Origin: Frankiales bacterium
GTDB taxonomy: Bacteria; Actinomycetota; Actinomycetes; JAFAQI01
Direction of reading: 5' to 3'
Assembly (NCBI GenBank): GCA_025980465.1
Contig: JAICXJ010000024.1
Location: forward strand, 1 to 45,089
Length of the DNA: 45,089 bases
The notes under the pieces are model-generated. The model was not told the origin of the DNA. It ran no database searches and saw only the letters and a list, made by a program, of their open reading frames with translations. Positions 170-19,539 of this stretch are shown here, piece after piece. Both the position numbers and the translations under genes were made by a program. Position 1 is the stretch's first letter; the number at the start of each line of letters is the position of its first letter.

Positions 170-1036
170 TCAGCCGCGTGTAGGGATCGTCGCCGCCCGC
201 CGTTGTCGAGTCGGTTCTCGGCGCCCTGGGTCACCGGCCGGATGTGAGTCGAAGTGCACCGGCGCCGCGAACGACGCCCGCCGCGCAGCGCGGCGGAAGG
301 TGCGAAGCGCGGCCGGACCCACGACCAGGATCGCGACGAAGTTGGTGACCGCCCGGCCGGTGTCCCAGCCCAGCGAGGTGGTCACGTCGAACACCAGGTA
401 GTGATGCAGCTGCGTGGCGAGCGAGGCGCCGGGGGAGTAGGCGATCGAGCTGCCGGGATCGAGCGAGAACGGCCAGAACGACAGGTTGGACATGAAGCCA
501 TAGAAGTAACCGGCGACCGCGCCGTAGATCGCGAGCATCGCGATCTCCCACCGGCCGCGAAGCTGCGGCAGGCAGCCGGCAAACAGTCCGACCCAGGCGC
601 AGCCGAACATCTGGTACGGCAGCCACGGCCCGACCCCGGCGGTGATCAGGGCCGAGCCGAACAGCGTCGTACAGCCGAGCGCGAATCCGAAGCCCGGGCC
701 GAAGACCCGCGCCGCGAGCACCAGCGTGAAAAAGACGAACTCGACCCCGGCGGTGCCGGCACCGAGCGGCCGCAAGGCGGCGCCGACCGCCGACAGCACG
801 CCGAGCATCGCGATCGCCTTCGCGTCGATCCCGCCGCTGGCCAGCTCGGCGAACAGCACTGCGAGGACGAGCAGCAGCAGCACGCCGAACATCAGCGGCG
901 GCGTGTACGAGCTTGCGAAGTGGTCAGGCGCCACCACAAACGGCCAGAAGAACGCGACGAAGCCGATGAAGGTTGCCATCACCACGACGATCGTGGCGCG
1001 GCCCTTCAACTCGATTGCGGCAATCGGGCGGCTCAT
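170..1036 (-). CDS. ECF transporter S component (predicted corrinoid-specific)
   Basis: This is the predicted substrate-binding membrane subunit of an energy-coupling-factor importer, 288 aa. Several hydrophobic segments span roughly residues 10-245: a first helix near residue 15, a pair around 45-85, and further helices to about 245. A charged Arg-rich cytoplasmic tail follows. The start ATG overlaps the stop of the upstream ATPase gene by one base (TGATG), which implies translational coupling. S components diverge in sequence, so cargo cannot be read from the protein alone. The cobalamin riboswitch ahead of the operon makes B12 or a related corrinoid the best guess, as in CbrT-type systems. 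The family call rests on hydrophobicity, size and position next to T and A subunits; the cargo is inferred. Confidence 0.8.
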   Translation of the reverse strand: MSRPIAAIELKGRATIVVVMATFIGFVAFFWPFVVAPDHFASSYTPPLMFGVLLLLVLAVLFAELASGGIDAKAIAMLGVLSAVGAALRPLGAGTAGVEFVFFTLVLAARVFGPGFGFALGCTTLFGSALITAGVGPWLPYQMFGCAWVGLFAGCLPQLRGRWEIAMLAIYGAVAGYFYGFMSNLSFWPFSLDPGSSIAYSPGASLATQLHHYLVFDVTTSLGWDTGRAVTNFVAILVVGPAALRTFRRAARRASFAAPVHFDSHPAGDPGRREPTRQRRAATIPTRG

Positions 1037-2664
1037 CAGCTCGCCTGCCGGTCAAGGGCAGCGGAGACCTGCGCGACGGTGAGGTACTCCAGCGGCGCCA
1101 GAATCTTCGCCACCTGTGGCGCGAATGCCGGTGAGGCCACTATTACGTCGCGGGTCGCCCCGTCGGCGACGATTTCGCCGTCGGCAATCACCACGACCCG
1201 CTCGGCCGCCGCGGCGACGAACTCGACGTCATGAGTCGCGATCACGACGGCATGGCCGCGGTTGGCGAGCTCGTCGATCACCGTGATCAGGGCGTGCTTG
1301 GCGCGGTAGTCCAGGCCACGTGTCGGCTCATCGAGAAGGACGACTCGTGGCTCGGCCCGCAACTGGATCGCGAGCACGAGGGCCAGCCGCTGCCCCTCGG
1401 AAAGGTCACGAGGATGGGTCTCACCGGCGATGCCTGGTGCGAGCCGGTCCAGCAGTTGCCGGGCGGTCGCTCGACCGGCCTGCGACTCCCGGTCGGCCTG
1501 GGCCAGCTCGGCATCGACGGTGTCGAGGTACAGCAGATCGGCCGGCGTCTGTGGCACCAGCCCGACCAACCGTCGCGCTGCGCCCGGCGACAGCTGCTTC
1601 GGGTCGGCCGCTGCTGTCGTGCCGTCCCCGCCGACGTTCACCGAGCCGGCCTGACGGCGACCACTGCCCTGCAGTGCCCACAGCAGCGAGGACTTGCCGG
1701 ATCCATTGCGTCCCATCAGCGCCACGACTTCGCCGGCTCGGATGTCGCACGAGATCCCGCGCACCGCCAGCACCTCGCCGTACCGCACGACGATGCCGCG
1801 CCCGCGCAGCGCGATCTCGCCCGCCGAATCCGGCCGACGCGGCGCGGGTACGTCGGCGAGCGCATCACGCAGGCCGCCGGCACTTCGTCGGGCATCGCGT
1901 ACCGACAACGGCAGCGGCGTCCACTCCATCAGGCGGCCGAGCTCCACCACCGGAGGCGCGACCGATGTGATGGCGAACATGTCGGCCGGTGAGCCGTCGG
2001 CGACCGTTCCGTCGCCCGCGAGGTGAATGACCCGGTCGGCGTACTGCACCACCCGCTCGAGCCGATGCTCGGCGAGGACCACCGTGATGCCGAGGTCATG
2101 CACCAATCGGGTCAGCGCCGCGAGGACCTCCTCGGCCGCGGTGGGATCCAGCGCGGACGTTGGCTCGTCGAGCACCAGGACGCGGGGATGGGCGGTGAGG
2201 ACCGAGCCGATGGCGACCCGCTGCTGCTGACCGCCGGACAGGTCGTGAAGCGGCCGGCGGCGGAGCTCGGCGAGCCCGAGCAGATCAAGGGTCTCCTCGA
2301 CCCGCTTGCGCATCACAGCCGGTGCGATGCCGAGCTGCTCCATCGTGTAGGCCAGCTCGTCCTCGACGATGTCGGTGACGAACCCCGAGAGCGGATCCTG
2401 CCCCACGACACCGACCAGGTCGGCCAGCTCCCGGGGCGGATTCTCGCGGGTACTGCGGCCGTTCACCCGCACCTCGCCGGCGAGCGTTCCGCCGGTGAAG
2501 TGAGGCACCAGACCGTTGATCGCCCCGAGCAGTGTCGACTTCCCGGCGCCGGTGCAGCCGACCACCAGGCACATCTCGCCTTCGTCGATGTGCAGCGTGA
2601 CGTTGCGTAGCACGGGCGCCGGCGCGTCCGGATAGGTCACGGTGACCCGGTCGAATTCGATCAT
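1036..2664 (-). CDS. ECF transporter double ATP-binding protein (fused EcfA-EcfA')
   Basis: A 542-aa cytoplasmic ATPase with two ABC domains in one chain supplies energy to the ECF importer. Domain 1 has Walker A GCTGAGKST, signature LSGGQQQR and Walker B VLVLDEPTSALD. Domain 2, after a linker, has Walker A GRNGSGKSS, a slightly altered signature LSEGQR and Walker B VVLLDEPTRGLD. The start at 2664 (ATG, overlapping the T-component stop as ATGA) begins MIEFDRVTVTYPDAP, a typical ABC N-terminus. The reading frame stays open much further upstream, but that extension lies antisense-like inside the T-component gene and is not needed. Fusion of the two ATPases is common in actinobacterial ECF systems. 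The degenerate second signature suggests the two ATP sites may be unequal. Confidence 0.93.
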   Translation of the reverse strand: MIEFDRVTVTYPDAPAPVLRNVTLHIDEGEMCLVVGCTGAGKSTLLGAINGLVPHFTGGTLAGEVRVNGRSTRENPPRELADLVGVVGQDPLSGFVTDIVEDELAYTMEQLGIAPAVMRKRVEETLDLLGLAELRRRPLHDLSGGQQQRVAIGSVLTAHPRVLVLDEPTSALDPTAAEEVLAALTRLVHDLGITVVLAEHRLERVVQYADRVIHLAGDGTVADGSPADMFAITSVAPPVVELGRLMEWTPLPLSVRDARRSAGGLRDALADVPAPRRPDSAGEIALRGRGIVVRYGEVLAVRGISCDIRAGEVVALMGRNGSGKSSLLWALQGSGRRQAGSVNVGGDGTTAAADPKQLSPGAARRLVGLVPQTPADLLYLDTVDAELAQADRESQAGRATARQLLDRLAPGIAGETHPRDLSEGQRLALVLAIQLRAEPRVVLLDEPTRGLDYRAKHALITVIDELANRGHAVVIATHDVEFVAAAAERVVVIADGEIVADGATRDVIVASPAFAPQVAKILAPLEYLTVAQVSAALDRQAS

Positions 2665-3881
2665 GCTGCTGCGCCGGTGGCGATCCGGCTGCCGACCGCT
2701 GCGAGCGGTTCGGTTGCCGGCGGAGGCGGTGCCGCGACTCCCGCAACCGCGGCCACAACGATCGCGAGTGTCGGCAGCAGTGGCAGTGACGGCCAATGCA
2801 ATGGACTGAACGACGGCGTCAGCGCCGCGACGTGATGGCCGGCGGCGAGCAGCAGGACGGCGGCCGCAACTGCGCCGGAGCCGGCCACGATCCACTCGGG
2901 CAGCTCCCACGGGTCGGGCCGGTATCGCGTCGTCGTCACCCGTCGACTTCCGACCCCGAGGCCGGCGCAACACAGCGACGCTCCCGCGATCAGCGTCGGC
3001 ATCCCGAGCAACCGCGGCGTTGTCGTGTCGAGCAGTCCGTAGACACCGGCAGTCAGGCCGGCCATCCCGGACAGCAGCAGACCAGCGGTGAGCCGGCGGT
3101 TCGCCGATCCAGTGCTCGCGGTGCGTCCGTACCCTCGCGAGTCCATCGCCGCTGCCAGTCGAAGCGAGCGGTCGAAGGCGTCCTCGACGACCGGGACGGC
3201 AATCGTGCGGAATCCGCGAAGGCCCCGTCGATGCCCGGCGCGCAGCCGCCGCGCCCGCCGTACCCTGATGCCGCTCTCGACGAGTTGCGGCGCGACGCTC
3301 ATGCACACGATGACGGCAACGCCGAGTTCGTACAGCGCGCCGGGCAGCACCCGGAGCGCTCGACGCGGGTTGGCGAGGGCGTTCGCGGCACCGATGCAAC
3401 ACAGCAGTACGCCGAGCCGCATCCCGTCGGCGGCGGCGTTCATCGTGGTCTCCAGCGACACCGGTCCGCCCAGCTGTACGTTCGCCGCCCAGTGCGGCAG
3501 TGGGATCTGCGGCAGCCGGAACAGCACGTGATCAGCGCCACCCACAGCGCCGCCGAAGACCGATCGGAACACGACCCTGATCACGATGACCGAGAGCGCG
3601 AGGAACAGGTAGTACTTCAGCGCCCTCGCCCACGGCGCATCCGTACGACGGGCGGTGACGACGTAACCGATGACAGCGAGTGCGATCAGCAGCAGCAGCG
3701 GGTTGTCGGTCTGGCTGATCGCGACGGCGAGGCCAATCGCCCATGCCCACCAGGCAACTGGGTGCAGGGCACGGGCAACCGGGTGCAGGGCACGGGCAAC
3801 CGGGTGCAGGGCACGGGCAACCGGTTGCGCGGCACGGAACGCCGATCGGCCGTCGGCGGCGGCATCACGTTGGAGCAGCAC
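2661..3881 (-). CDS. ECF transporter transmembrane T component
   Basis: A 406-aa integral membrane scaffold protein (EcfT/CbiQ family) couples the S component to the ATPases. Membrane helices are visible around residues 45-75 and 90-110, with more in the middle and C-terminal thirds. The region near residues 225-250 (AAAMDSRGYGR) matches the conserved Ala-Arg-Gly motif of EcfT proteins (family consensus A-x-x-x-R-G) that contacts the ATPases. The start is GTG at 3881, preceded by GAGG five to six bases upstream. The N-terminus carries a heptapeptide VARALHP repeated three times, encoded by a 21-bp tandem repeat just before the first helix. Domain content and the 1-4 base overlaps downstream make this the first gene of the ECF operon. 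Confidence 0.88.
   Translation of the reverse strand: MLLQRDAAADGRSAFRAAQPVARALHPVARALHPVARALHPVAWWAWAIGLAVAISQTDNPLLLLIALAVIGYVVTARRTDAPWARALKYYLFLALSVIVIRVVFRSVFGGAVGGADHVLFRLPQIPLPHWAANVQLGGPVSLETTMNAAADGMRLGVLLCCIGAANALANPRRALRVLPGALYELGVAVIVCMSVAPQLVESGIRVRRARRLRAGHRRGLRGFRTIAVPVVEDAFDRSLRLAAAMDSRGYGRTASTGSANRRLTAGLLLSGMAGLTAGVYGLLDTTTPRLLGMPTLIAGASLCCAGLGVGSRRVTTTRYRPDPWELPEWIVAGSGAVAAAVLLLAAGHHVAALTPSFSPLHWPSLPLLPTLAIVVAAVAGVAAPPPPATEPLAAVGSRIATGAAA
3755..3838. repeat. 21-bp tandem repeat, four units, inside the T-component gene
   Basis: Four consecutive 21-bp units start at 3755, 3776, 3797 and 3818. Units 2 and 3 are identical, unit 1 differs by one base, and unit 4 is degenerate. 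The period is a multiple of three, so copy number can change without breaking the frame. On the minus strand it encodes repeated VARALHP heptads in the N-terminal cytoplasmic segment of the EcfT-like protein. Confidence 0.95.
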
Positions 3882-10693: not shown

Positions 10694-12331
10694 TTATGTC
10701 GGCGCGGTGAGCGCAAAGCTGTAGGCACGCGCGTTGTAGCAGTTGCTCGACGGGGTTGCTCGAGTGATCCAACGGTTCGCCGAGTTCGACCACTGCGCCG
10801 CAGAGACGCATTGTCGCGTCGTGCCGTGGTAGTACTGCGACGTTCCGAGATTGAAGCCGACGTCGGGTACGAACAGCCCGTGCGCTGAATACGCCGTCGG
10901 GCGGTTCATGAACTTCTCCACGCAGGCGCGGGTCAGGTTCGCCCCGCAGGTCTTGGCGGCATCGGTGAACCACATCGCACCGATCCAGCCTTCAAGCGCG
11001 AACTGGTGGTTGTGCGGGAGGTCGCCCGGGAAGTACTTGCGCATCGCGGCCTGGAACTGCGCGATCTGCGGACTCGAGCTGTCCTGGAAGTTCAACGAGT
11101 AGGCGTCACTCCAGCTCTTGTCCGCGCACTTCGGCGTCGCCCTGAAGTCGCTGCCGACGCTCGCGCCCCAGCCGGCAAGTGTGGTGAGCTTGATCTTCAT
11201 CTGGGACTCGAATGCGGAGTTCTGCTCGATCGCCTCGCACAGCTTCTGGCTGCCGTTCTGGTCGAGCGCGTCAGCAACCAGGTCGACCCCCGCCGCCTTC
11301 ATCTGCGCGACAGCGGATGCGAAGTTCGGCAGGCCGAGGTTGACCTGGTAGAGCGAGACCGGCACGCCTGCGGTCTTGAAACCATCGGCGAGGGTGTTCG
11401 CGCCGTACTGCGACGAGGCCTGGTCGTAGTAGATGACGCCGACGTGCTTGATGTGCTGTGCCTGCTTGAAGTACAGCGCCTCTTCGTCGGTGCGCCAGGA
11501 CTTGCCGTTCAGTCCGAGCGTCTTGCCATTGCGCGGCTGATGATCGCCGTCGATGGAATAGAGGTGCTTGTAGAGGTAGTACGCCGTCGAGATCGGCTGG
11601 CTGCCGATGTCGGGGACGTCCTGACTGTCGGCATACGCCGCGCCGGCGTACTGGTAGATGTTGTTGGCGACGAAGGCGAACGCCTTGTTCTGGTCGATGC
11701 AGGTGTGGACCTGGCTCAGGTTGCCGCTGTCGGAGCCGTCGTCGGGATGCGAGATGAAGTTGACCTTGCGGCCGTGGATCCCGCCCGCCGCATTCAGCGC
11801 CGCGAAGTACGCGGCGGCGCCGTAGTAGCTCGGCGTGAACTGGTAAGGCCCGAACGGCCCGCCCTGGGTGACGACGTTGCAGACCGTGATCGAGGTCGCG
11901 GTCACGCCGCGATCCGACGCGGTGTTCCCCGCGGCGCCGCCGGCGCCCGTTCCGGTTCCGGTGCCCGTCGGGGCGCCGCTGCCCTTGCCCGTTCCGGTAC
12001 CCGTGCCGGTGCCGGTACCCGTGCCGGTGCCGGTACCCGTACCGGTGCCGGTTCCGGTTCCGGTGCCCGTGCCGGTTCCGGTGCCCGCACCGGCTCCCAG
12101 GCCGGTCCCGGTCCCCGTTCCAGTGCCCGCGCCTGGTGTGCTCGGCGTGCCCAGTCCCGGCGCGCCCCCGCCGCCGGCTGGTCCGCCGGTGGTCGGGCTG
12201 GTTGCGCCGGTCGACGGGTTGACGATGAACGGCGCGAATGCGGAGTCCGGAAGGCGGGTCCCGCAGCCGGCCAGGACCAGGATTGCGGTGACCGCGCCGA
12301 GCCGGCGGAAGGTGTCGCGAGAGGCCCTCAT
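10694..12331 (-). CDS. ABC transporter substrate-binding lipoprotein, branched-chain amino acid type
   Basis: A 545-aa extracellular lipoprotein. The N-terminus has charged residues, a hydrophobic core and the lipobox LVLAGC with lipidated Cys at residue 23. Residues about 60-132 are a low-complexity linker dominated by alternating Thr-Gly. From about residue 142 (GVTATSITVCNVVTQGGPFGPYQ) a type 1 periplasmic-binding-protein fold follows, with LNAAGGIHGRKVNFI and VGVIYYDQASSQYGANTLADGFKTAGV typical of LivK-like receptors. The AGGT sequence seven bases before ATG serves as ribosome site. It is divergent from the LivHM-G-F operon, which lacks its own receptor, so the two units probably form one importer. 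Cargo is unknown; in such actinobacterial systems it need not be an amino acid. Confidence 0.9.
   Translation of the reverse strand: MRASRDTFRRLGAVTAILVLAGCGTRLPDSAFAPFIVNPSTGATSPTTGGPAGGGGAPGLGTPSTPGAGTGTGTGTGLGAGAGTGTGTGTGTGTGTGTGTGTGTGTGTGTGTGTGKGSGAPTGTGTGTGAGGAAGNTASDRGVTATSITVCNVVTQGGPFGPYQFTPSYYGAAAYFAALNAAGGIHGRKVNFISHPDDGSDSGNLSQVHTCIDQNKAFAFVANNIYQYAGAAYADSQDVPDIGSQPISTAYYLYKHLYSIDGDHQPRNGKTLGLNGKSWRTDEEALYFKQAQHIKHVGVIYYDQASSQYGANTLADGFKTAGVPVSLYQVNLGLPNFASAVAQMKAAGVDLVADALDQNGSQKLCEAIEQNSAFESQMKIKLTTLAGWGASVGSDFRATPKCADKSWSDAYSLNFQDSSSPQIAQFQAAMRKYFPGDLPHNHQFALEGWIGAMWFTDAAKTCGANLTRACVEKFMNRPTAYSAHGLFVPDVGFNLGTSQYYHGTTRQCVSAAQWSNSANRWITRATPSSNCYNARAYSFALTAPT
11942..12130. repeat. 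Low-complexity hexanucleotide tract encoding a Thr-Gly linker
   Basis: Near-repeats of 6 bp (variants of CCGGTG, CCGGTA, CCGGTT, CCCGTG) extend over about 190 bp within the binding-protein gene. On the coding strand they read as alternating Gly and Thr codons, giving a (TG)n stretch of some 60 residues interrupted by LGAGAG and KGSGAP. Synonymous codon variation shows it has been held as peptide sequence and is not a fresh slippage product. Confidence 0.93.
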
Positions 12332-12543
12332 GCGACACCTGCGTCAGTCGTCACGCTGATGGGGTCCGGACCGGGAGCGCCGCTTCCTGATGGGGCGGAA
12401 TGAACCGAGGCTCGGCTGGTGGCGCTCGACTTAGACATTGGTGTCATAGCGGGCATGATCGGCTATTGTGAGCCTCGTCACACCCGCAAGTCCAGCAAAA
12501 CCGGCACCGAAATCCGATCTGAGTGGCGCTGCTGAAGGGGGCC
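12332..12543. other. Divergent intergenic region between receptor gene and importer operon
   Basis: About 210 bases carry the two divergent promoters of the importer locus. A GACATTGGTGTC inverted repeat (arms GACA/TGTC, 12434-12445) is the best operator candidate. A TATTGT hexamer near 12463 could be a rightward -10 element. No RNA gene or ORF is supported here. The importance of the inverted repeat is inference only. Confidence 0.35.
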
Positions 12544-14121
12544 ATGGGTCTCGACCGCCAGGGTCACGGTTCCACCCGTCGAACTGACCTGCTGCCGACG
12601 CTTCTCGTCGCGACCCGGCGACGCGGGAGGCTCCTGTGCTGGGTCGGCGCGCTGGGACTGGCGGTCGCCGGCACGGTCGGCGCCGGAGCGGCGAATGCCG
12701 TCAACACCGCCGCCCCCCAGACGAGCGCCTCACCGACCTACACCTACTCGACGAACGCGACCGCGATCGGGGTTCAGGTGCAGCTGGCACAGCGGCCGGA
12801 ACCCACCTCGGTGCCCGACCTGTTCGACGTCCAGACGCCGTCGAGCGATGCCCACCTCGACAGCTTCGGCACCTCGGATTCCTCCGGCCACGTCGGCAAT
12901 CTCAACGGGCTCGGCCAGCTCCCGTCGCTGATCTGCCTGGCGGCAGGTGGTGGCTGCAACAAGATCCCGATCAGTCTGCTCTCCGGCGGGCTGATCAAGT
13001 CCTTCCCGCCACCGGATCCGTTGGACGCGCACGCGACGTATCCCGCGAACCAGACCGCCGTCGCACCATTGATCGGCACCAAGGCGGCACAGGTTCAGGT
13101 GAACTCGAAGGGTCTGTCGCTCGGCGCGGGTACGGCGTCGGCGACCGCACACGCGCTGTCGACATCGACGGAGGCGGTCGACGGTCATCTCATGCTCGCC
13201 GGCGCGATCTCGATCGGATCGGCGCGCACCTCGACCTCGCAGGTCGCGACCGGAGCTGAGCTGACGACGACCGCGACCAGCGACGTGTCTAGCATCGACA
13301 TCGGTGCCGGCAAGCTCCTCCACATCGGGTCGGTGAACTCGACGGTCACGGTTCACTCCCGGCCGGGGCAGAAGCCGACCGACACGGCGAGCACCCGGGT
13401 CAGCGGCGTCAAGGTGCTCGGTCTGGCCGCCACGATCGACGCGAACGGCATCCACGTCCAGAAGGCGCCTGCCCTTCCAGCCGCGGTGAGTACCGCGGTC
13501 CAGAACGCGATCGAGGAGCTGCTGAAGGCCGCCGGGATAGCGCTGAAGATGGGGTCTGTCCAGCGCAGCGACAACCACACCGGCCACAACGTCTCGATCG
13601 CCGGGCTCGCGCTGGTCTTCAAGCACACCGTGAAGGGAACGCCACCGATCACGCTCGGCCTGCCGCCTGGGATCCCCTGCCCGATCGAACCGATCACCTC
13701 CAAGCTGCCGCTCGACCCCTGCGCCGGCCTCGCGCTGAGCGTGAACGCGAACTACACCGGCACGATCGGGCTCGGTGAGATCGGGGTGGTGAGCCTGGCG
13801 TCACCGGGCGGCTCCGGCGGTGGCGTTCCGGGCGGCGGTCTGCCCGGCGGTACGACAGGTCAGGGCGCGGGGTCCGTGCCGGGCGGCTCCACCGGCCCCG
13901 GCGCCATCCCGGGTGGCCCGTCCGGCACGCCGGGTGGCTCGACCAGCAGCGGACCGAGTCCGAGCGGTGCCCAGCCCGCGGTCGCGGGACAGTCGCGTAC
14001 GTTGGCGGACCAACTTGCCGGTGCGAGCCGACGAATGCTTTGGTTCTTCCCGCTGATCATGCTCGGGTTGCTGGCGATCGGCGGCCGCTTCCGGGTCCCG
14101 GCCAGGTTGCCTCGGAAGTAA
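12544..14121 (+). CDS. Secreted, C-terminally membrane-anchored protein of unknown function
   Basis: A 525-aa exported protein. An Arg-rich N-terminus and hydrophobic stretch (LLCWVGALGLAVAGTVGAGAANA) form a signal peptide with likely cleavage after ANA. The Ser/Thr/Ala-rich extracellular body (about residues 55-415) contains conserved-looking segments such as ATAIGVQVQLAQRPEPTSVP and CLAAGGGCNKIPIS. A Gly/Pro/Ser-rich flexible linker follows, then a C-terminal hydrophobic helix (MLWFFPLIMLGLLAIGG) and a basic tail, which is a membrane anchor without an LPXTG signal. GAAGG five bases before ATG 12544 decides the start over the in-frame GTG at 12523. It is the first gene of the importer operon, so it may act at the cell surface with the transporter. 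The family was not recognised with certainty. Confidence 0.75.
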   Translation: MGLDRQGHGSTRRTDLLPTLLVATRRRGRLLCWVGALGLAVAGTVGAGAANAVNTAAPQTSASPTYTYSTNATAIGVQVQLAQRPEPTSVPDLFDVQTPSSDAHLDSFGTSDSSGHVGNLNGLGQLPSLICLAAGGGCNKIPISLLSGGLIKSFPPPDPLDAHATYPANQTAVAPLIGTKAAQVQVNSKGLSLGAGTASATAHALSTSTEAVDGHLMLAGAISIGSARTSTSQVATGAELTTTATSDVSSIDIGAGKLLHIGSVNSTVTVHSRPGQKPTDTASTRVSGVKVLGLAATIDANGIHVQKAPALPAAVSTAVQNAIEELLKAAGIALKMGSVQRSDNHTGHNVSIAGLALVFKHTVKGTPPITLGLPPGIPCPIEPITSKLPLDPCAGLALSVNANYTGTIGLGEIGVVSLASPGGSGGGVPGGGLPGGTTGQGAGSVPGGSTGPGAIPGGPSGTPGGSTSSGPSPSGAQPAVAGQSRTLADQLAGASRRMLWFFPLIMLGLLAIGGRFRVPARLPRK

Positions 14122-14164
14122 CGAACAGAAGGGACATTGACGACGATGCGTACCGGGTACCGCC

Positions 14165-14776
14165 ATGGCTAGGGTCGCCAACGGCAGCGGGGCCACCGAC
14201 CTCGCTGTCGCCGAACCTGTGACGGCGGCAGCGGCGCCTGACAACGGCAACGGTCAGCATCCGAACTCCGAGCCGGTGGAGGTCACTCCGGCTGTCGGTT
14301 GGGCCTGGGTGATGGAGGGGGCCCGGCCCTACCTCGGCTACATCTTCATCGCCGCCGGTCTGCTGGCGGTCTTTCTCGGGTGGTACGGCGCCTCCGGCGA
14401 GGCGCTGGTTGCCAAGCAAATTCCGTACCTCGCGAGCGACGGTGTCCTCGCCGTCGTCCTGATCGCGATCGGGAATCGGATCTTCCTGATCAACGACCTG
14501 CGCCGGGACTCCGGGCGGCTCGACCGCCTGGAGCAGATGATCGCCGAGCTGCACGCGGTGCTCCTGGCACGCACCGATGTGATTCCGGAGCCGTCCGCTG
14601 GGCGGGTGGCGGCCGGATCGAAGCAGTTCCGCGCCGTACCGAAGGGCACCAGCTACCACCTTCCGGACTGCGCCATGGTCGCCTCGAAGGAAGCGATCAG
14701 TCTCAGTCGTGGCGAGGTCGTGAGCCGGCGGCTGCGGCCGTGCCGGATGTGCAGCCCCGAGACCGTCAAGGGATGA
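14165..14776 (+). CDS. Small membrane protein with Cys/His-rich C-terminal motif
   Basis: A 203-aa protein of unknown function. After a hydrophilic N-terminus of about 45 residues come two membrane helices (GYIFIAAGLLAVFLGWYGA and LASDGVLAVVLIAIGNRIFLI). A short coiled-coil-like stretch follows (RRDSGRLDRLEQMIAELHAVLLAR), then a C-terminal domain with the pattern Y-H-L-P-D-C ... R-P-C-R-M-C. That H-x3-C ... C-x2-C spacing resembles small zinc-binding modules appended to other proteins, but metal binding is inferred. Its stop overlaps the permease start as ATGA, so it is translationally coupled to the importer. No strong ribosome site is seen at the ATG. It might be an accessory factor of this transporter. 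Confidence 0.7.
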   Translation: MARVANGSGATDLAVAEPVTAAAAPDNGNGQHPNSEPVEVTPAVGWAWVMEGARPYLGYIFIAAGLLAVFLGWYGASGEALVAKQIPYLASDGVLAVVLIAIGNRIFLINDLRRDSGRLDRLEQMIAELHAVLLARTDVIPEPSAGRVAAGSKQFRAVPKGTSYHLPDCAMVASKEAISLSRGEVVSRRLRPCRMCSPETVKG

Positions 14777-17013
14777 CCTCCCCCTCGCAGCCGGGGGGGC
14801 TCGATCCGCGTTTCGGAGCGGCCCGTCGAGGCCGCGCCGCATCGATGGTCGACACCGTTCCGGCGCCGTTGCGCAACTGGGGTGTGCTCGCCGCGGCGCT
14901 GTTCGTGCTGTGGGTGCTTGCGGCGGCGCCGGGAGACTGGAGCAACATCGGCTCGCAGTTCGTTGCGGGGCTGCAGATCGGCGCGATCGCGGCACTCGGC
15001 GGCACCGGCCTCGTCGTCGCCTATCGCGCGACCGGAGTGTTCAACTTCGCCTTCGCCGGGATCGCCACGATCGCGGCGTTCATCATGTACGAGCTCACCA
15101 CCAAGAACTCGCTTCCCGAGTGGCTCGGACTGGTGATCGTCGTGGGCGGCGTGGCGCCGGTGATCGGCGGACTGATGGACGTCGTCGTGTTCCGCTCTCT
15201 CGAGCGGCGGTCAGCGGGTACGGCGGAGAAGCTCGTCGCGAATCTCGGCGTTCTGATTCTCCTGCTCGGTATCGGTGGCGTGATCTACCAGGAGACCGCC
15301 TACCAGCCGAACTTCGTGTTCTCCAGCAAGCAGGCATTCAGCATCGGAAGCGGCTCGAGCGCCGTGTCTGTGTCCTGGGGTGTCGTCGGCAACGTTGCCA
15401 TGATCGTGGGCGCGGCCGGCCTGCTGATCCTCGTGTTCCGTTTCACGCCGTTGGGCCGACAGGTGAGGGCGGTCGTCGACCGGCGGGGACTGGCGGAGCT
15501 CAATGTCGTCAACGCCAACCGCATCTCGATGCTCTCCTGGGCGATCGGCGCGATGTTCGCGGCGCTCGCCGGCGTGCTCGACGCTCCGGTCGTCGGGCTG
15601 CAGAACGGCGCGCTGGCGTTGCAGGTGTTGCAGATCATCGGGGTTGCCGTCATCGCGAAGCTGCGGAACATCGGCGCCGCGGTCGCCGCCGGCTTCGGCC
15701 TGGGAGTCGTGGGCAGCCTCTCGGCGCTGATCGAGACTCCGCACTACCCGCACTGGTTGCACTGGGTGCACTTGCCGAGCCTCAACCAGGACATCGTCGT
15801 ACAGCTCCCGGTGCTCAGCACGTTGGCCTTCTTGCTGATCTACCGCACTCTCGACGAGTCCGACGGCGGCGGGACCGGCGGGATCGTGACGGCGTCATTC
15901 AGCCGGGCCCGGCGGCGGACCGCGGCCGCCACCGTGCAGGGCGCGTTGGGTGTGCTTGCGGTCGTGATCATCGTGCCGGCGGTCATTACCGGCAAGAATC
16001 TGGTCACTGCGCAGTCGGTGGTCGCCTATGCCGTCTGCTTCCTGTCGATTGTGGCGATCACTGGTTACAGCGGCCACATCTCGTTGGCGACCGCAGCCTT
16101 CGCCGGACTCGGTGGCTACGTGACGGTGCGCCTCAGCAATGGGCTGTGGCCGTTGCCAACCACCGCGACGTTGCCGCATGTGCCGCAGATCGTCGCGATG
16201 ATCATCGGTGGAATCGTCGTGATCCCGCTCGGGGTGCTCATCGGCTACCCGGCGCTGCGACGACGCGGCTTGATCCTCGGCTTGATCACCTTGGCGTTCG
16301 CACAGATCATCGAGCAGTTCGTGTTCCAGAAGCCGAGTTGGAGCAGCGCCGGTCGCACCATCACCCGCCCCGGCTTGTTCGGGTTCTCGCTGTCCGGAGA
16401 CCGGACCTTCCTCTACTACGAACTCGTCGTGCTTGGGCTGATCCTGTTGCTCGTCCGCAACCTGCGAAGTGGTGCGCTCGGGCGGATCCTCGGCGCAATG
16501 CGCGACAGCGAGAAGGGGGCGGTCAGCGTCGGCATCTCGCTGCGGCGCTACAAGCTGCTGATCTTCGGCGCCAGCTCATTCATCGCCGCGATCGGCGGCA
16601 GCCTGCTGGTCCAGCAGCAGGGGACGCTCAACCTCAACCAGGATGGCCCGTTCTCACCGTTGGCCGGGCTGTACTGGTTCGGCGCTGTCGTGGTGTTCGG
16701 ACTGTCGTATCGAAGCGGCGCGATCCTGGCCGCTGTCCTCTATGTGTCGGTCGATGTCGCCACCGGGCGAACCAACTCGAGCCTGATCGTGATCGGTGCG
16801 GTCGCGCTGTTCATCGGCTATCTGCCGGGTGGTGTCATCGGCAGCGGATTGCGGGTGTTCAGCGGCGACGGCATCGACGACGTGTCCCCGGCGCAGCGTT
16901 CGCTTGCCCGCTTCGCGGCCGAACGGCGACGACGTGAGACTGCCCCGCCCCCAGGCACCGGGCTGAAGCCCTCGGCGTTTGCCGAGAAGCTGCTGGTCGG
17001 GGGTGGGGAATGA
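14773..17013 (+). CDS. Branched-chain amino acid-type ABC permease, LivH-LivM fusion
   Basis: A 746-aa integral membrane protein in which both permease halves are one chain. Residues about 45-345 are LivH-like (GLQIGAIAALGGTGLVVAYRATGVFNFAFAGIATIAAF), with the ATPase-contact region VNANRISMLSWAIGAMFAALAG. Residues about 375-700 are LivM-like (VAYAVCFLSIVAITGYSGHISLATAAFAGLGGYV), with the second contact region ISLRRYKLLIFGASSFIAAIGGSLL. A charged tail rich in Arg and Pro ends the protein. The start at 14773 overlaps the previous stop (ATGA), and its own stop overlaps the LivG start in the same way. Fused LivHM proteins exist in actinobacteria, though separate subunits are the textbook case. 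Substrate is unknown. Confidence 0.92.
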   Translation: MTSPSQPGGLDPRFGAARRGRAASMVDTVPAPLRNWGVLAAALFVLWVLAAAPGDWSNIGSQFVAGLQIGAIAALGGTGLVVAYRATGVFNFAFAGIATIAAFIMYELTTKNSLPEWLGLVIVVGGVAPVIGGLMDVVVFRSLERRSAGTAEKLVANLGVLILLLGIGGVIYQETAYQPNFVFSSKQAFSIGSGSSAVSVSWGVVGNVAMIVGAAGLLILVFRFTPLGRQVRAVVDRRGLAELNVVNANRISMLSWAIGAMFAALAGVLDAPVVGLQNGALALQVLQIIGVAVIAKLRNIGAAVAAGFGLGVVGSLSALIETPHYPHWLHWVHLPSLNQDIVVQLPVLSTLAFLLIYRTLDESDGGGTGGIVTASFSRARRRTAAATVQGALGVLAVVIIVPAVITGKNLVTAQSVVAYAVCFLSIVAITGYSGHISLATAAFAGLGGYVTVRLSNGLWPLPTTATLPHVPQIVAMIIGGIVVIPLGVLIGYPALRRRGLILGLITLAFAQIIEQFVFQKPSWSSAGRTITRPGLFGFSLSGDRTFLYYELVVLGLILLLVRNLRSGALGRILGAMRDSEKGAVSVGISLRRYKLLIFGASSFIAAIGGSLLVQQQGTLNLNQDGPFSPLAGLYWFGAVVVFGLSYRSGAILAAVLYVSVDVATGRTNSSLIVIGAVALFIGYLPGGVIGSGLRVFSGDGIDDVSPAQRSLARFAAERRRRETAPPPGTGLKPSAFAEKLLVGGGE

Positions 17014-17813
17014 CCGTCGCCGCCGCGCCGGTACGGCTGCGTGGCGCCCGGCTCGAGGTCCGCGATCTGACCAAGAGCTTCGGCGGCTTTGTCGCGGTCC
17101 GCGACGCGAGCCTGGTAGCGGAGCCCGGTCAGGTCACCTCCCTGATCGGGCCGAACGGTGCCGGCAAGACGACCCTGTTCCACTGTGTGAGCGGCATCGA
17201 GCCGCCCGACGCCGGTCACACCATCCTCGACGGTCAGAGCTTGCGGGGGATGACCCCCGATCGGCGAGCCCGGGCCGGGATGGCCCGCACCTTCCAGATC
17301 CTCGAGCTGTTCGGCGGCTTGACCGTCGCCGAGAACTTGCAGGTCGCGGTCGAGGGGCGATCGGTGAGCCGGATCTGGCGCGACCTGTTCTCCCTGCGCC
17401 ACCCCGACAATCCGGAGGTCGAGGCGCAGGTGCAGCAAGCGCTCGACCTGGTCGGGATCGGGCACCTCGCACACCGACCCGCGGGATCCTTGCCGACCGG
17501 ACTGTCACGCCTCGTGGAGTTGGCCCGGGCGTTGTGCACCGAGCCTCGGGTGCTGTTGCTGGACGAACCGGCCAGCGGCCTGTCGACCGCGGAAACCGAC
17601 CGGCTGCACCGGGTGTTGTCGTCGCTGGCCGACCTTGGGCTGACGATCCTGCTCGTCGAGCACGACATCGAACTGGTGATGGCACTGTCGAAGACGATCT
17701 ACGTTCTCGACTTCGGTGTGGTGATCGCCGCCGGGACGCCGGCCGAGGTGCGGGCGAACCCGGACGTTCGCGCGGCGTACCTCGGTGCGGACCCGGATGA
17801 GGTCGAGTCGTGA
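17010..17813 (+). CDS. ABC transporter ATP-binding protein, LivG type
   Basis: A 267-aa cytoplasmic ATPase of the importer. It shows Walker A IGPNGAGKTTLF, the LivG-typical stretch GMARTFQILELFGGLTVAENLQVA, an unusual C-loop region LPTGLSRLVELARAL in place of LSGGQ, Walker B RVLLLDEPASGL and switch histidine LLVEHDIELVM. C-loop departure from LSGGQ is common in LivG proteins. ATGA and GTGA overlaps with the flanking genes imply balanced, coupled synthesis with LivHM and LivF. Confidence 0.93.
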   Translation: MTVAAAPVRLRGARLEVRDLTKSFGGFVAVRDASLVAEPGQVTSLIGPNGAGKTTLFHCVSGIEPPDAGHTILDGQSLRGMTPDRRARAGMARTFQILELFGGLTVAENLQVAVEGRSVSRIWRDLFSLRHPDNPEVEAQVQQALDLVGIGHLAHRPAGSLPTGLSRLVELARALCTEPRVLLLDEPASGLSTAETDRLHRVLSSLADLGLTILLVEHDIELVMALSKTIYVLDFGVVIAAGTPAEVRANPDVRAAYLGADPDEVES

Positions 17814-18520
17814 CCGCTGCGCTTACCGTCGAGAACCTGTACGCCGGCTACGGCAAGGCGACCGTGATCCGCGACCTCAGCCTCACGGTGCCGGAAGGCT
17901 CGACGGTCGCACTGCTCGGTCCTAACGGCGCCGGGAAGACCAGCACGCTCGGGGCGCTGACCGGCATGGTCAAGGTCACGTCCGGACGGGTGCGGCTGGG
18001 CCGGCTCCGGCTCGACGGACTGACGACCTACCAGCGCGCCGCGTCCGGGTTGACCCTCATCCCCGAGGGTCGCGGGATCTTCCCCGGCCTGACCGTTTCG
18101 GAGAACTTGACCCTCGCTGCTGACTCCGCGCGCGGCGTCGACAGGGCGTGGCGCACGCGACAGATGCGCCGAGTCGAGGAGATGTTCCCCGCACTCGGCG
18201 GGCGCTCGCGGCAACGGGCCGGAACGTTGTCCGGCGGCGAGCAACAGATGCTCGCGGTCAGCCGGGCCTTCCTGGCCCACCCGCGGGTGCTGATGATGGA
18301 CGAGATCTCGGCCGGGTTGGCGCCGCTGATCGTCGAGCAGCTCTACAAGGCGGTCGAGGAGCTGAAGAACGACGGCGTCACGATCGTGCTCGTCGAGCAG
18401 TACGTCACCTACGCGCTGAAGCTCGCCGACATCTGTTACGTGCTGGGGCGCGGCAGCGTGCGATTCGTCGGCGAGCCGGCCGAGCTGCGGGCCGGCGGCG
18501 CCGGCTTCAGCTACCTGTAG
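17810..18520 (+). CDS. ABC transporter ATP-binding protein, LivF type
   Basis: A 236-aa cytoplasmic ATPase, the second nucleotide-binding subunit of the importer. It has Walker A LLGPNGAGKTSTL, the stretch GLTLIPEGRGIFPGLTVSENL typical of LivF, signature LSGGEQQM, Walker B RVLMMDEISAGLAP and switch histidine replaced by Gln in VLVEQYV, as is usual in LivF. The GTG start overlaps the LivG stop. The luciferase-like gene starts two bases after its stop, so that enzyme is probably made from the same transcript. Confidence 0.93.
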   Translation: MTAALTVENLYAGYGKATVIRDLSLTVPEGSTVALLGPNGAGKTSTLGALTGMVKVTSGRVRLGRLRLDGLTTYQRAASGLTLIPEGRGIFPGLTVSENLTLAADSARGVDRAWRTRQMRRVEEMFPALGGRSRQRAGTLSGGEQQMLAVSRAFLAHPRVLMMDEISAGLAPLIVEQLYKAVEELKNDGVTIVLVEQYVTYALKLADICYVLGRGSVRFVGEPAELRAGGAGFSYL

Positions 18521-18522
18521 AC

Positions 18523-19539
18523 GTGTCGGCCACACCTTCCCTGCCGCTTGCGGTGCTCGACTTCGTCGGGATCGAGTACGGCGAGAGTCCGGCATCGGCA
18601 ATCGCTGGGGCCGTGCAGGTCGCCCAGACGCTGGACGACTCGGGATACCGGCGGTACTGGGTCTCCGAACACCACAACATGACCAGCCTCGCGTGCAGCG
18701 CGCCCGAGTTGTTGATCGCGCACATCGGCGCGAAGACCTCGCGGATCCGGATCGGCGCCGCCGGAATCATGCTGCCGAACCACTCGTCGCTGAAGGTCGC
18801 AGAGATGTTCCGGACCTTGTTGGCGATGTACCCGGGCCGGATCGACCTGGCGTTGGGTCGGGCGCCCGGCACCGATCCGCTCACTGCGCACGTTCTTCGG
18901 CGCGGAATGGTGTCCGACCCGGCGGTCGAGTTCCCCGGTCAGGTCGGCCAGCTGCTCGCCTTCCTCGGCGAGGGCTTCCCGGACGACCATCCCTACCGCC
19001 AGCTCGTCGCGGCTCCGGTCGTCGATGAGCGACCGGAGCTGTTCGTCCTCGGGTCGAGCGCCTACGGCCCGATGTTCGCCGCGGCCAACGGCTTGAGCGC
19101 GGTCTTCGCCCATCACATGAGCCCGGACATTGCCTTCGATGTGCTCACGTCGTACCGACGCGACTTCACACCGAGGTTCGAGGGTCAGCAGCCGTACTCG
19201 GCGATGTCAGTGTTGGCGTTTGCAAGCGATGATGAGGCCTCGGTCCGCGATTTCGAGGCGGCCTGGACGCTGACCATCCGAAACATCAGGCAAGGCAAGC
19301 GCGAGCCGCTGCCGCCTGAACGGGTGGCGGAGTTCGCCGCGTCGGCGGAGTTCGCCGCCACCCGAAACGTCGACGGCCGGATGGTCACCGGCTCGCCCGG
19401 CCAGGTGGTGCGGAAGCTGCAGGAGATGAAGGAGCACGCGCAGGCGGACGAGATCGTGGTGGTGACGCCCAGCCTGGACCGCGACCGCCGCCGCTCGAGC
19501 TTCGCCGCGATCGCGGCAGCATGGCGTTCCGCCAGCTAG
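18523..19539 (+). CDS. Luciferase-like (LLM class) flavin-dependent oxidoreductase
   Basis: A 338-aa TIM-barrel oxidoreductase that would use FMN or F420. The start SATPSLPLAVLDFVGIEYGESPASAI and the segments YWVSEHHNMTSLACSAPELLI and LALGRAPGTDP fit the 'group 1' luciferase-family oxidoreductases (family pattern Y-W-x-A-E-H-H-N-x-P). The GTG at 18523 follows the LivF stop by two bases and yields the family length. The frame is open further upstream inside livF but that part is out of family. Operon position suggests it may act on the imported compound; cofactor and substrate are unresolved. Confidence 0.88.
   Translation: MSATPSLPLAVLDFVGIEYGESPASAIAGAVQVAQTLDDSGYRRYWVSEHHNMTSLACSAPELLIAHIGAKTSRIRIGAAGIMLPNHSSLKVAEMFRTLLAMYPGRIDLALGRAPGTDPLTAHVLRRGMVSDPAVEFPGQVGQLLAFLGEGFPDDHPYRQLVAAPVVDERPELFVLGSSAYGPMFAAANGLSAVFAHHMSPDIAFDVLTSYRRDFTPRFEGQQPYSAMSVLAFASDDEASVRDFEAAWTLTIRNIRQGKREPLPPERVAEFAASAEFAATRNVDGRMVTGSPGQVVRKLQEMKEHAQADEIVVVTPSLDRDRRRSSFAAIAAAWRSAS

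Follow-up and report, generated by a model that had tools for sequence, protein, structure and literature searches.

A Liv-type importer is regarded as a machine of five parts, and the question raised by the operon at 10694-18520 of the window (the whole 45,089-nucleotide stretch of DNA that was analysed, part of contig C54 of a 3.45 Mb assembly) is whether two further proteins encoded there, referred to below as SEC and TM2, belong to the machine or are neighbours of some other kind. The reading that we favour, with a probability of about 0.6, is that a Liv/HAAT-type ABC importer of Actinomycetota has two dedicated accessory subunits. As judged by sequence comparison, the genes are tightly packed, have kept their place among Liv genes while operons were rearranged and duplicated, and are co-inherited with the permease. 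SEC and TM2 occur in many soil actinobacteria, and since they stay beside Liv through such rearrangements, both probably take part in the work of the importer in a role that has so far gone unrecognised. An earlier note on this DNA had proposed an undescribed uptake system, a proposal that stands at the level of gene association but not in what it said of a constant gene position and of the tail of TM2.

The operon and its place among Liv-type importers

The gene content and arrangement described in the earlier note, with SEC, TM2, LivHM, LivG and LivF present and the receptor divergent, were confirmed:

10694..12331, minus strand: REC, Liv-type receptor (Peripla_BP_6, E=3.3e-39; lipobox LVLAGC), divergent
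12523..14121, plus strand: SEC, secreted beta-rich protein of 532 aa with a C-terminal membrane anchor
14165..14776, plus strand: TM2, two-helix membrane protein with the hairpin motif G-W...Q-x-P-Y-L-x-S-x-G and an H-C-C-C tail
14657..14758, plus strand: Ada-like tail of TM2, H-x3-C...C-x2-C-x-P, residues 165-198
14773..17013, plus strand: LivHM, fused permease with two BPD_transp_2 stretches (PF02653, E=3.1e-37)
17010..17813, plus strand: LivG ATPase (PF00005 and BCA_ABC_TP_C)
17810..18520, plus strand: LivF ATPase (PF00005)

The divergent starts of REC and SEC lie 191 nt apart, a gap of 43 nt separates SEC from TM2, and overlaps of 4 nt join TM2 to LivHM, LivHM to LivG and LivG to LivF. A receptor adjoins most relatives of the operon; in the window (10694-12331) its lipobox is followed by a long, near-perfect Gly/Thr repeat linker. 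A luciferase-like monooxygenase gene (18523-19539) directly follows LivF, with no match listed in 20 regions from relatives, and is not conserved there. The flanks of the window encode CoA ligases, acyl-CoA dehydrogenases, enoyl-CoA hydratases, a P450, a ring-hydroxylating oxygenase and ETF. An ECF-type importer is encoded at 170-3881, consisting of an S component-like protein, a fused double ATPase and a CbiQ-like protein, with S component and CbiQ matches below the Pfam cut-off.

The system belongs to the Liv/HAAT type in that it has, in common with the LivJ-LivHMGF importer, a Peripla_BP_6 receptor, two permease domains (the BPD_transp_2 stretches) and two LivG/LivF-type ATPases, but it differs from LivJ-LivHMGF in the fusion of its permease domains in one chain and in its two extra conserved partners. 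No window protein scores above the curated cut-off for LivH, LivM, LivG, LivF or Urt, and the best NCBIfam matches of the ATPases, LivG and UrtE/LivF, are below the equivalog cut-offs. The statement of the earlier note that neither accessory is a known importer part held in the literature that our search covered (PMC8399759 and PMC7593942 included, most subscription papers and preprints being outside it), where no report of SEC or TM2 in such a role was found. CamABCD of Rhodococcus jostii RHA1, which takes up steroid metabolites (PMC8399759), may be likened to the window system as an actinobacterial ABC importer, not as an established Liv type, and the passages on it in the literature covered mention no accessory proteins.

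Association of SEC and TM2 with Liv genes

Matches to TM2 were found in 30 of 99 relatives searched, and all 40 regions around such matches in relatives of the same class carry adjoining Liv genes. A genome-contig collection (84,980 species) gave no match to the single TM2 sequence and 73 loci when scanned with a profile of 21 TM2 proteins, about ten of these loci being the same places as regions from the class relatives. All 73 are titled as actinobacteria except one, a MAG contig titled Acidobacteria (L136/L193) that carries the system; the genome to which it probably belongs is grouped with the window's phylum, and the title looks wrong. A Liv gene lies within 3 kb of TM2 in 69 of the 73 loci (within 600 bp in 46), and in the other four TM2 is 8-615 bp from a contig end. 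Since 250 permease-domain matches were found in about 50 Mb of sequence from 15 genomes, about 3% of random positions would be expected within 3 kb of such a match, and the linkage of TM2 to Liv is therefore beyond chance. The receptor intervenes in five loci where TM2 and Liv are ~3 kb apart (L147-L150, L200).

In a phylum-wide sample of 396 genomes, 47 gave a TM2-profile match at 1e-6, in many cases to the tail only, and 12 gave a match to SEC at 1e-10; the best nine (TM2) and best four (SEC) candidates per genome were scored, so that per-genome counts are lower bounds. Of 40 regions drawn across the phylum that have the TM core, 38 contain Liv genes, the two misses (L144, L158) being near contig ends. 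Liv genes are also present in six of nine SEC-match regions with no listed TM2 (L204-L207, L210, L212), the other three (L208, L209, L211) being short contigs. The earlier note had held that finding the partners often without Liv would speak against it; this situation was sought and did not turn up for the TM2 core or strong SEC matches, contig ends aside. Four Liv operons (L213, L214, L216, L217) have neither partner, though the same genomes carry partners elsewhere. The first two (C85 and C11 near 144 kb) are in the window's genome, which has 17 permease-domain matches, and strong SEC and TM2 in four operons (C54, C11, C52, C98). Liv thus commonly occurs without the partners, and the only partners found without Liv were on truncated contigs.

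The two partners do not follow Liv in the same manner. In 55 of the 73 named loci SEC is found no more than 400 bp from TM2, and in the other 18 it is not (L130 being scored a miss since distance was taken from a second TM2 copy); because of these absences, of several SEC-Liv loci in which TM2 was undetected and of TM2 copies that lack the tail, neither part is universal. Among 165 clusters (7 partial, some loci counted twice, and sampled mainly through TM2), SEC accompanies 97 of 115 with fused LivHM as compared to 8 of 43 with split LivH/LivM. The co-occurrence with fused LivHM that the earlier note proposed checking is thus mostly seen for SEC but is not exclusive for TM2, which also lies beside split LivH/LivM; TM2 is the more general Liv partner and SEC mostly goes with fused LivHM. 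A stricter rule, under which split clusters would always lack SEC, agreed with the 73 named loci and failed in the wider sample.

Linkage of this kind would be expected of partners in one pathway or in an envelope role no less than of members of one complex, and SEC and TM2 might constitute an envelope module of their own, e.g., a wall-surface structure or a transport sensor, that serves the same pathway from outside the importer complex. The usual proximity of the two (the 55 loci above) and their position as a pair downstream of LivF in many loci are in keeping with this explanation, which we nevertheless consider rather improbable, given that the pair is split in several loci of family f14, with TM2 copies upstream of LivHM and SEC downstream of LivF, that TM2 without SEC and SEC without detectable TM2 each still stand beside Liv, and that TM2 often overlaps or abuts LivHM. 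In the 58 operons with TM2 upstream of LivHM, 55 TM2 stops lie no more than 25 nt from a potential start of LivHM and 24 of these overlap it by 4 or 1 nt, a favourable count because the nearest possible start was chosen.

The TM2 and SEC proteins

The two-helix protein with a tail that the earlier note had recognised in TM2 is borne out by a structure model with helices at 46-77 and 86-136, a small tail domain after these long helices, and the tail residues H165-x3-C169...C193-x2-C196. An alignment of 50 TM2 rows, chosen to reach the tail, has G65, Q85, P87, Y88, L89, S91 and G93 invariant in or near the hairpin and H165, C169, C193 and C196 invariant in the tail. Fold searches with TM2 returned helix-pair matches only. 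The window TM2 has no Pfam or NCBIfam match besides DUF6233 (PF19746; E=0.094, 13.3 bits, short of the 27.6-bit cut-off), which weakly matches 25 of the 50 rows (best E=7.6e-5).

The zinc-binding domain of Ada has four Cys ligands, the first of which is the methyl-acceptor Cys. The TM2 tail has similar ligand spacing and the same C-x2-C-x-P end as this domain (1adn; PF02805), but His replaces the first Cys in 50 of 50 rows and the tail is joined to a membrane hairpin. With His at the first ligand and matches this weak (profile E=0.17 to 0.39 across four PDB sequences; PF02805 matches in 3 of 50 rows at E<=0.1), the tail does not qualify as an Ada zinc domain. It was also rejected as a diagnostic feature, 19 of 20 tail-led regions fetched being without a Liv permease (the twentieth, L183, has the TM core and Liv); the proteins in these regions include nucleases, surface proteins and two-helix proteins lacking the Q-x-P-Y-L motif. 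The tail is not special to the system and caps unrelated proteins with no Liv nearby. Six loci (L164, L165, L166, L170, L171, L173) represent a separate two-helix group with the same tail, no Q-x-P-Y-L and no Liv nearby.

A role for TM2 as a cytoplasmic sensor of metal or redox state that would switch the importer off, the tail doing the sensing, seems improbable to us. The invariance of H, C, C and C (in rows chosen to reach the tail) and the resemblance to the Ada zinc domain are what such a sensor would predict, but some TM2 copies have no tail, including ones that are the sole copy detected (L157, L163), so the hairpin can work without it, and the presence of the same tail on many unrelated proteins fits a generic structural domain.

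SEC has a hydrophobic segment at its N-terminus, a Gly/Pro/Ser linker, a C-terminal hydrophobic helix and a basic end. Its earlier description as a secreted protein anchored by a C-terminal helix agrees with the predicted structure, in which a beta core (~73-430; pLDDT mostly at least 90, weaker near 130-200 and 380-400) is followed by a disordered linker and a helix at 495-521. For the window SEC, neither Pfam nor NCBIfam gives a match at E<=1, and nothing among PDB sequences comes below E=0.5. On profile evidence, SEC is a distant relative of the choice-of-anchor P proteins (NF040603): some match to this model occurs in 25 of 56 SEC rows at E<=0.1, and three of ten proteins scanned singly (from L113, L120 and L134) pass its 27-bit cut-off, which the window SEC, itself without a match, does not reach. 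The model spans 185 positions as compared to the 532 aa of SEC, and a literature search on its name found no paper. SEC was also considered as a porin, an ApoB-like protein or a lipid tube; these candidates were rejected, the Foldseek and VIA matches being only middling and within the common range (the best fold match is ApoB-100, Z 8.6, rmsd 3.8 over 125 residues, with porins at Z near 7). In a test for alternating-hydrophobic (amphipathic) strands, 105 of 2000 shuffles reached the observed value.

Gene order, co-inheritance and a possible role

Four gene orders recur. The first, that of the window, is SEC-TM2-LivHM-G-F with a divergent receptor, and the second is receptor-LivHM-G-F-SEC-TM2. 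In the third, tandem TM2 copies are followed by LivHM-G-F and SEC either precedes or follows; in the fourth, LivH and LivM are split, TM2 is at the end or opposite, and SEC is usually missing. When mapped on a FastTree tree built from 102 distinct fused LivHM proteins, the side of TM2 needs a minimum of three changes, the side of SEC four and the presence of SEC six. The constant position claimed earlier therefore gives way to at least three (TM2) and at least four (SEC) switches of side around LivHM, with Liv linkage kept. Tree distances across 67 operons correlate between LivHM and TM2 (r=0.70), LivHM and SEC (r=0.75) and LivHM and REC (r=0.86). The correlations fall when partners are exchanged between paralogues within a genome, and in the four pairs tested none of 1000 such shuffles reached the observed value; of the 67 operons, 31 lie in multi-copy genomes. 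An explanation by frozen gene order, in which SEC and TM2 are unrelated to Liv and have only travelled with it through common descent or transfer, is hardly credible, even with many loci coming from related MAGs and some being the same place in two collections, in view of those side changes, the separate movement of SEC and TM2, and a Liv linkage that extends to families across the phylum.

If SEC and TM2 are importer subunits, TM2 would be an integral one that packs on LivHM through its hairpin, where the invariant Q-x-P-Y-L-x-S-x-G motif marks the outer end of helix 2. Basic residues after helix 2 suggest that the tail is cytoplasmic, which would place a metal-binding H-C-C-C domain near the ATPases, where it may act in assembly or in control of the ATPase cycle. 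The beta-rich domain of SEC would stand outside the membrane on its long linker, as the receptor does, and could catch or hand over substrate at the cell wall. These mechanistic details are doubtful. The gene neighbourhoods suggest that the substrate is probably a catabolic compound entering CoA pathways (acid, lipid-like or aromatic) and not necessarily a branched-chain amino acid: CoA-pathway genes are present in 26 of 61 TM2 loci of at least 9 kb, as compared to 1 of 10 and 1 of 19 comparison loci, a crude comparison with small and imperfect comparison sets (2 of 29 together). A broader view, which we offer tentatively, is that of a distinct class of actinobacterial ABC importers in which TM2, with its metal domain, stands in the Liv translocator, SEC on the wall side offers the receptor substrates that are bulky or dissolve poorly, and many copies in some soil lineages feed CoA-based catabolism. 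Were SEC and TM2 subunits, many actinobacterial "branched-chain amino acid transporters" would be a separate type with control and substrate-delivery parts of its own, and there would be a handle on what the multiplied importer copies of soil actinobacteria take up.

Multiplication is evident in f14, where each of five genomes has 16-31 TM2 matches and Liv genes are present in 12 of 12 regions examined (L051-L062); TM2 is often tandem-duplicated in this family, the tail being confined to the second copy. Two loci, L215:6724-10527 (minus strand; C11 near 168.7-172.5 kb in the window's genome) and L218:7611-11468 (plus strand), have single frames of 1268 and 1286 residues that fuse both Liv permease domains and both ATPases, and a membrane-anchored receptor and a SEC-like protein adjoin them.
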